DNA of 64,000 nucleotides from Pseudoalteromonas carrageenovora IAM 12662 (lineage in GTDB: Bacteria > Pseudomonadota > Gammaproteobacteria > Enterobacterales > Alteromonadaceae), in NCBI RefSeq assembly GCF_900239935.1, contig NZ_LT965929.1:535001-599000 (forward strand). The letters run 5' to 3'. Positions within the stretch are counted from its first letter, which is position 1, and every line of letters begins with the position of its first letter. The translations under genes and the position numbers were made by a program. The notes beneath the pieces are model-generated. The model had not been told where the DNA came from and did not search any database. It worked only from the letters and a program-made list of their open reading frames with translations. Shown here one piece after another: positions 62,394 to 64,000 of the stretch.

Positions 62394-63623
62394 TTATAAT
62401 CTTGAAAAAGGGCTAACAACCCCGTTAGCACCTTGTTGTAAAACATGAGTATATATTTGTGTAGTACGCACATCGCTGTGACCTAGTTGTGTTTGTACTG
62501 TACGTATATCAGCGCCGCTTTGCAGCAAATGCGTAGCGAAAGAGTGGCGCAAAGTATGTGGGGTAACGTGTTTATTAATATGTGCATCAAAAGCGGCTGT
62601 TTTTAACAGCGCGTTGTAATTGCTTTTCATCGATATGATGGCGTCTCAATTGCTTACTCTCAGGATCAAGACTTAGGGCCTGTTTATCTTTCGAGGTTAA
62701 ATTTGCAGCAGTGTGTTTGGTATTTAGGCAAGGCAGAGCCTATGTAGTGTGGTTATTCCCCATAAATGGGCAATAACGTAGCATTAATGCCAAACAGGCG
62801 CTGCCCAAAGGGTTCTTCCTAGGGGCTATTTACTCTTTGTTGCTCAATTTTTACTTAGCCCACTAGGTTACAAACCTCACGCCGCGATTAAATAGCCCCT
62901 AGATTGAACAAATTTTAATCCTGAAAGGTCAACAGGCCCTGATTTATGTGATGAAAATAAATATTGCCAACCTAACTGTTTGTTATGGTTTGGATATTTT
63001 TTACGTAACAAATGCGGCATATAAGCGCCGCTATATAAGGGGTTTTTCAGATCTAATTGCAGGTAACTATCAACTAATTGTATTTGAGAACGTAATTGCG
63101 GTATGAGCTCTACTGCAAGCGTTACAACACGATTTTTACCTCCTTTGCCATCCCAAATTCGAATGCAGCTATAGTCAAAGTCAATATCGTGAACTCGTAA
63201 ACGCAGTACCTCCATTAATCGCATACCACTGCCATAAAGTAATCCACAGGGTAAATAATGCTTAGCTACACAGTGTTTAAATAGCGCTGAAACTTCTGTT
63301 TGAGTAAGCACAACGGGTAGTTTTCTTGGGCGTTCACTTTTTACAAAGTCTAATGATAATGAAAGGGGGCTCTTAATTATTTCTTTATATAGGAAACTTA
63401 GCGCATTTAGTGCCTGCGCTTTTGTGCCTTGCGCTACGTTTTGCGAGTTTACTAAATGGTTCAAATACGATTCCACTTGAGTGTCTCCCATAGAGCTTGG
63501 GTGCTGCATATTATTAAAGCGGATATAGCTAGCTATCCAAAAAAGATAAGCTTCAATAGTGCTCTTTGCATACCGTTTGCTATACATATGGTCTTTAATC
63601 ATGGTTAGAAAGAGAGATTTCAT
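62394..63623 (-). pseudogene. intI: Integron integrase (IntI) broken by a MITE and a frameshift
   Basis: A tyrosine recombinase of the IntI type. The N-terminal domain and first catalytic Arg (GSGMRLMEVLRLRVHDID) are intact from 63623. The IntI-specific segment NPLYSGAYMPHLLRKKYPNH is present. After LFSSHK the frame enters a 264-bp MITE (62676-62939) and stops. Beyond it [12 protein letters not shown] and LQRAVK follow, then five A instead of four (62600-62604) shift the frame before [20 protein letters not shown]. The catalytic box II and [14 protein letters not shown] remain readable to 62394. No active enzyme can be made. Confidence 0.93.
62676..62939. mobile_element. 264-bp MITE-like element, copy 2, inside intI
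   Basis: Same length and layout as the copy at 51539. The termini are GGGCCTGTTTATCTTTC and, from the other end, GGGCCTGTTGACCTTTC. The flanks are TA (62674-62675) and TG (62940-62941), the latter a decayed TA. Removing the element and one TA restores SHK-LSL-DPES in the integrase frame, which fixes its ends to the base. It contains no gene. Confidence 0.88.
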
Positions 63624-63650: not shown

Positions 63651-63666
63651 CTGTATATATAGACAG
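63651..63666. promoter_or_regulatory. LexA (SOS) box upstream of intI
   Basis: CTGTATATATAGACAG has the CTGT and ACAG ends and differs by one base from CTGTATATATATACAG. It lies 28 bases before the intI start, overlapping its likely promoter, as in SOS-controlled integron integrases. Confidence 0.87.
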
Positions 63667-63827: not shown

Positions 63828-63929
63828 GTGGTGTTCAATAAGCTGTTATGAGTTTTATCTAATTGGATTGTTTGTTGTAGCTAAAAGGATTTTTGCTAAA
63901 AGTATAGTCCTCTTTTCGCTTCATACGAG

Positions 63930-63961
63930 TTGAGCTAGGCTAATTTTATTTAGTAGCTCAA
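63930..63961. repeat. Inverted repeat near the right edge, candidate att-like structure
   Basis: TTGAGCTA / TAGCTCAA, perfect 8-base arms with 16 bases between. GTTGAGC at 63929-63935 fits the GTTRRRY core, but the arm order is opposite to a standard attC, so this is only a candidate. Confidence 0.3.
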
Positions 63962-64000
63962 GTTAACCTTTATTTACAAATTGGGTGTTTACTATTAGTG

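Follow-up and report, generated by a model that had tools for sequence, protein, structure and literature searches.

A Pseudoalteromonas integron integrase gene broken by a MITE and a frameshift beside a short attC array

Can an integron integrase gene that reads as two separate open frames still serve the cassettes beside it, and how far would its loss be felt in the rest of the genome? The question is raised by intI at 62394-63623, minus strand, of the window, the 64,000-nucleotide stretch of Pseudoalteromonas DNA analysed here (C2:535001-599000). The window lies on the 0.82-Mb contig (C2) of a 4.58-Mb genome assembled in three contigs, the other two being C1 (3.62 Mb) and C3 (0.14 Mb), with a completeness of 100. 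We are highly confident that this intI is broken by a MITE and a frameshift, and that its LexA-like box, the probable attI and a short array persist beside it.

The integrase gene and the inserted MITE

A profile search matched the open reading frame at 62877-63623 (minus strand) to positions 1-223 of TIGR02249, the integron integrase family (318 bits), and the frame at 62394-62630 (minus strand) to positions 243-315 (132 bits). In the genome-wide search the pieces, combined as neighbouring matches, scored 441 bits against a cut-off of 265, and the match includes the integron-specific segment. Judged by these matches, the two frames are parts of one integron integrase. Codons 1-227 occupy 62943-63623 and share 98.6% amino acid identity over residues 1-227 with the open protein of G016, a relative presumed to be P. 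fuliginea KMM 216; the 5′ frame itself continues to 62877, inside the MITE. A short segment between the MITE and the frameshift (62600-62675) was recovered by tblastn with the G016 protein as residues 228-256 in a frame of its own, and the 3′ part (62394-62630) follows in the shifted frame. The motif positions lie at 63192-63233, 62523-62558 and 62445-62483, all on the minus strand, and are taken by us to be box I, box II and the tyrosine region, respectively. Upstream of intI, the pattern CTGT-N8-ACAG has its sole match in the window at 63651-63666 (no strand assigned), presumably a LexA site; each of the 13 loci scanned, our own included, has one such match.

The preliminary description held that a 264-bp MITE interrupts intI, and it does. 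The element, whose extent was read from the sequence, spans 62676-62939 (no strand assigned) and is bounded by 30-nt terminal inverted repeats that are 80% complementary (62675-62704 and 62911-62940). It is short, holds no transposase gene and is present in many copies: searching its DNA against its own genome gave 44 match rows (40 of 86 candidates scored), a figure that differs from the exact copy number because some copies are split over two rows. Flanks were compared for 30 copies, and TA stands on both sides in 20 of the 28 full-length ones, a count that leaves out two partial copies and includes one read with a one-base offset. The copy in intI has TA on one side (62674-62675) and TG on the other (62940-62941), so its target duplication is imperfect. 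G016 has no insert: its two gene parts adjoin directly and are 98.2% and 92.9% identical to those of the window; this open intI at the same locus is the intact homologue in a related strain for which the preliminary description had advised looking.

The same description had allowed that relatives might share the interrupted structure, which none did among the listed matches in 108 genus genomes. With a 91-bp query across the intI-MITE junction and our own genome among the 108, the only full-length match listed is the window's own genome; the longest other among the matches listed (best first) covers 66 of 91 bases. The 5′ part of intI is matched by 83 of 229 loci examined, seven of which are the window's own place. 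Apart from those seven, four intI loci carry this MITE, at least 3.7 kb away from intI, and in none of the 83 loci does the 264-bp element adjoin intI outside the own genome's place.

The locus across the genus

To compare the same place among relatives, the locus was anchored on the neighbouring acyl-CoA dehydrogenase gene (identity of at least 85%) in 24 genomes, our own (G000) included. The gene is open in seven (G016, G001, G090, G084, G068, G095 and G091), broken in five (G000, G005, G014, G089 and G086), absent or a small remnant in ten (G015, G063, G097, G036, G101, G034, G064, G100, G067 and G105) and out of view at a contig end in two (G008 and G059). Decay and loss of intI are thus common at this locus. 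In G015 (L127, 3483-8475), intI is down to about 41 bp of its end and five attC are still in place. An Aliivibrio salmonicida plasmid (L039, 12139-13101) carries an annotated, uninterrupted intI about 87 to 89% identical to the parts in the window, which suggests transfer between families.

Three of the broken genes (G005, G014 and G089) have frames of 313, 326 and 307 aa, in which a different MITE, of 160 bp, replaces the last codons together with the catalytic tyrosine, residue 302 of the G016 protein. This element, with ATACCCGCTG ends, sits in the last intI codons at L040 13043-13200, L075 7408-7565 and L076 6880-7037, and likewise at L121 9754-9911 and L080 6848-7005; the window's intI lacks it. 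In a genus search, copies of at least 81% identity (12 of the first 13 rows) adjoin intI when compared by eye, and many copies of 78% identity or less lie elsewhere in the genomes. We had considered an attachment system specific to intI and set it aside once the search revealed a MITE family with many copies elsewhere; one old insertion that spread with intI is the more likely account of the copies beside it.

Comparison at fourfold sites indicates that the intI genes of the genus are mosaic. The gene of G097 C1 agrees with that of G016 at 11 of 45 sites in codons 1-226 and at 15 of 22 in codons 262-305; for G059 the corresponding figures are 12 of 45 and 18 of 23. At four of the 12 intI loci with the 160-bp MITE, the complete end of intI is succeeded by a remnant of the MITE and, after it, a second copy of the intI end (about 58 bp; L126 1450-1813, L131 1591-1946, L118 2907-3270 and L078 8581-8922). 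In two of these four, G097 C1 and G059, the frame is open and includes the tyrosine, and the other two, G086 and G001 C24, carry a stop. This arrangement suggests that some truncated alleles have been re-completed.

The freeze at our locus could on these grounds be temporary, with intI alleles of the genus dying and then being completed by recombination with other alleles. Both the mosaic genes, near G016 in codons 262-305 only, and the loci with a doubled end speak for such a course; nothing of the kind is seen in the window's own intI, however, and the stops in G086 and G001 C24 count against it as well. We regard it as possible but rather unlikely. Given exchange of gene parts among relatives, the broken state of the window's gene may be reversible. 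A wider version, in which Pseudoalteromonas intI would time and again be killed by a MITE and then re-completed through recombination among mosaic alleles, and the window would show the temporary off stage of a control over cassette shuffling genome-wide, including scattered attC clusters, is more doubtful still and is offered as speculation.

The relatives also bear on the second lesion. At 62599-62604 (minus strand) the window shows five A followed by C and A; in most relatives the run of A is continuous. Of 20 loci given to the alignment 18 were aligned, and in 16 of these 18 the window is one base longer at exactly 62599-62604: ten of the 16 have six A, four have seven A, where a different codon ahead of the run keeps the frame, and two lack such a run, reading AAACAGG. 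As to the other two, G015 C1 equals the window in length by way of its own seven-A run, and L056 was aligned with other gaps. In none of the 18 would one added A convert the run to the window's sequence. The frameshift before box II that had been described therefore stands, as a +1 shift at the coordinates given for it, and its proposed cause, one extra A, finds no support in the relatives' runs.

Runs of A are error-prone, and a sequencing or assembly error would leave the MITE as the one real lesion, in a gene dead even so. Against an error, what sets the window apart is a base interrupting the run and not simply the length of the run, and the assembly consists of three contigs with a completeness of 100; we consider an error very unlikely. 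Separate production of the two fragments, which would then join to form a working split integrase, is scarcely credible: both catalytic halves are present as open frames and the 3′ fragment, with an open frame of 78 aa, starts from an ATG of its own, but residues about 228-245 lie outside both frames, the junction is absent from the other listed matches in the 108 genus genomes, and the split point falls, as we understand the protein, within the catalytic domain.

We therefore return to a gene inactivated by both lesions. By its sequence, with MITE and frameshift inside the gene, it is not expected to encode a functional integrase: the first fragment stops inside the MITE and reaches neither box II nor the tyrosine, and the second includes these two without the N-terminal half. 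The frameshift by itself would likewise cut off box II and the tyrosine; from general knowledge of tyrosine recombinases each lesion alone would be expected to inactivate the enzyme. Codon changes relative to G016 are silent in 7 of 10 cases in the 5′ part and in 10 of 11 over the final 68 codons; three codons of the 5′ part occur in the window alone, two of them replacements, too few to judge. The decay is probably recent, because most changes relative to the nearest open alleles are silent and the LexA-like box has stayed as it was.

A probable attI, the cassette array and the remaining attC sites

A probable attI crossover point lies at 63844-63850 (plus strand), where alignments to 10 homologous loci break. 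They end at 63848-63850 in seven and at 63856-63862 in three, and beyond the break the sequence differs in each, as expected of an attI with different first cassettes. The sequence beside intI thus probably includes an attI. The part of the first cassette inside the window (63846-64000, plus strand) has no open reading frame of 25 aa or more.

The preliminary description proposed that attC sites be sought to the right of the window, and four attC-like sites were found there, two strong, one weak and one by folding only. A covariance model derived from 24 attC in other genomes places the attC of the first cassette at C2:599027-599125 (64027-64125 in window numbering; E 3.3e-18), the second strong site at C2:601090-601189 (E 8.4e-15) and the weak one at C2:599352-599454 (E 0.0022), all on the plus strand. 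The fourth, a short attC-like hairpin at C2:600634-600704, is missed by the model and was found by folding, with a z of -4.34 that beats all 200 shuffles; the three sites found by the model fold with z of -2.4, -3.3 and -3.6. The array, three sites by model on the plus strand and one by folding, thus runs in cassette orientation. The model also matches the opposite strand at 599027-599125 (E 0.18) and 601090-601189 (E 0.00028); its three hits within the window, at E 0.23-0.26, are put down to chance. Scans for attC core motifs to the right of the window missed all four sites, which surfaced through the attC of a related genome, reading of the sequence and, for three of the four, the covariance model. 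Once the four sites had been found, we gave up an earlier view that the genes on this side of intI were something other than cassettes. Cassettes 1 and 2 hold no open reading frame above 34 aa; cassettes 3 and 4 encode proteins of 366 and 137 aa, neither of which has a Pfam or NCBIfam match.

The array is followed, at its last attC, by an IS110-family transposase gene. One and the same 14-base junction at an attC end is found in five places in four genomes (our own and four places in three others), and after each of the five comes a gene related to this transposase gene, with 78 to 94% identity. Elements of the family following this shared junction were noted at L071 4181, L126 5465 and 9658, L119 13007 and L143 1584. 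Past the IS110-family element, the genes stand in an order common to several relatives. A 2008 paper reportedly named an IS1111-attC group. By their position at attC-end junctions, the elements here resemble the attC-targeting IS1111 group; targeting of attC by IS1111-type elements is described in PMC11187229.

Whether another enzyme could act on these sites was judged from the 13 TIGR02249 matches in the genome. Most of the integron-specific part (about positions 178-236) is covered by the window's intI only, the other matches ending at or before 187 or starting at or after 237. The best other protein, a tyrosine recombinase of 277 aa on C3 that adjoins an IS91-family transposase, scores 170 bits, below the cut-off of 265, and matches positions 1-177 and 237-302 with 178-236 unmatched. 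It was rejected as a second integron integrase acting in trans, being under the cut-off and without the integron-specific segment. C1 carries an intI-like fragment of 50 residues. The search for a second integrase that had been recommended thus found none in the genome with TIGR02249.

At E up to 1e-3 the attC model finds at least 18 sites in the genome, a lower bound with 150 of 3,152 candidates scored: two belong to this locus, and the other 16 lie away from it, spread over C1, C2 and C3. These 16 fall at C2:166387-168920, C2:342289-345534, C3:121395-122313 and C1:1884893-1887849, plus four single sites, and among the 13 TIGR02249 matches there is no other integron integrase match near these 16. 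The effect of a dead intI reaches beyond this array to those 16 sites, and if the integrase is dead the attC sites of the genome are without a resident enzyme.

Consequences and relation to known integrons

Taken together, the intI of a resident, sedentary-type integron has become a pseudogene through insertion of the MITE and a separate +1 frameshift. Neither fragment should be able to recombine DNA, because the first has neither box II nor the tyrosine and the second lacks the N-terminal half including box I, so that cassette integration and excision would be off here and at the genome's other attC sites, unless an integrase comes from outside. With no other integron-specific integrase in the genome, yet at least 16 attC elsewhere, the genome as a whole probably no longer captures or excises cassettes. 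The preliminary description called the integron frozen unless helped in trans, which the attC array and the lack of a second integron integrase in the genome support well. It went too far in taking the cassette content as fixed: deletion, homologous recombination and insertion sequences can still alter it, and an IS110-family element is already at the last attC.

Decay of intI of this kind is common and already described in other bacteria. Nearly one third of intI genes are given as pseudogenes in one survey (PMC2426708) and 43 to 46% as inactive in another (PMC3108266), and a frameshift or insertion in intI is what such genes share with ours (PMC2426708, PMC3108266). Frameshifts in intI1 arose during serial transfer, with fitness regained (PMC3510236). 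The Xanthomonas sedentary integron linked to ilvD has an intI broken at a fixed locus, often through frameshifts, stops or deletions, and scattered attC clusters (PMC12444791). Our case resembles it in having intI at a fixed locus by a housekeeping gene and integrase-less attC clusters elsewhere (PMC12444791), and differs in that one lesion is a MITE and the locus adjoins an acyl-CoA dehydrogenase gene on a 0.82-Mb contig. It is also like the class 2 integron with its non-functional intI2 in that an array is carried with a dead integrase (PMC2426708), although intI2 is broken by an internal stop codon and the window's intI by a MITE and a frameshift. Inactivation of intI correlates with loss of LexA control in PMC3108266; here, unlike that trend, the LexA-like box is kept beside the broken gene. 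Literature on MITEs within intI, Pseudoalteromonas integrons and mosaic intI, searched by title and the start of the abstract, yielded no report of this locus among the papers listed.

On its own, the window's intI adds one case to a well-documented trend, one in which a MITE is among the lesions and the LexA-like box is retained. The genome as a whole offers a clear example of integrase loss, with one dead integrase and at least 18 attC on three contigs without a resident enzyme, and so a natural case in which to follow the fate of cassettes once shuffling stops.
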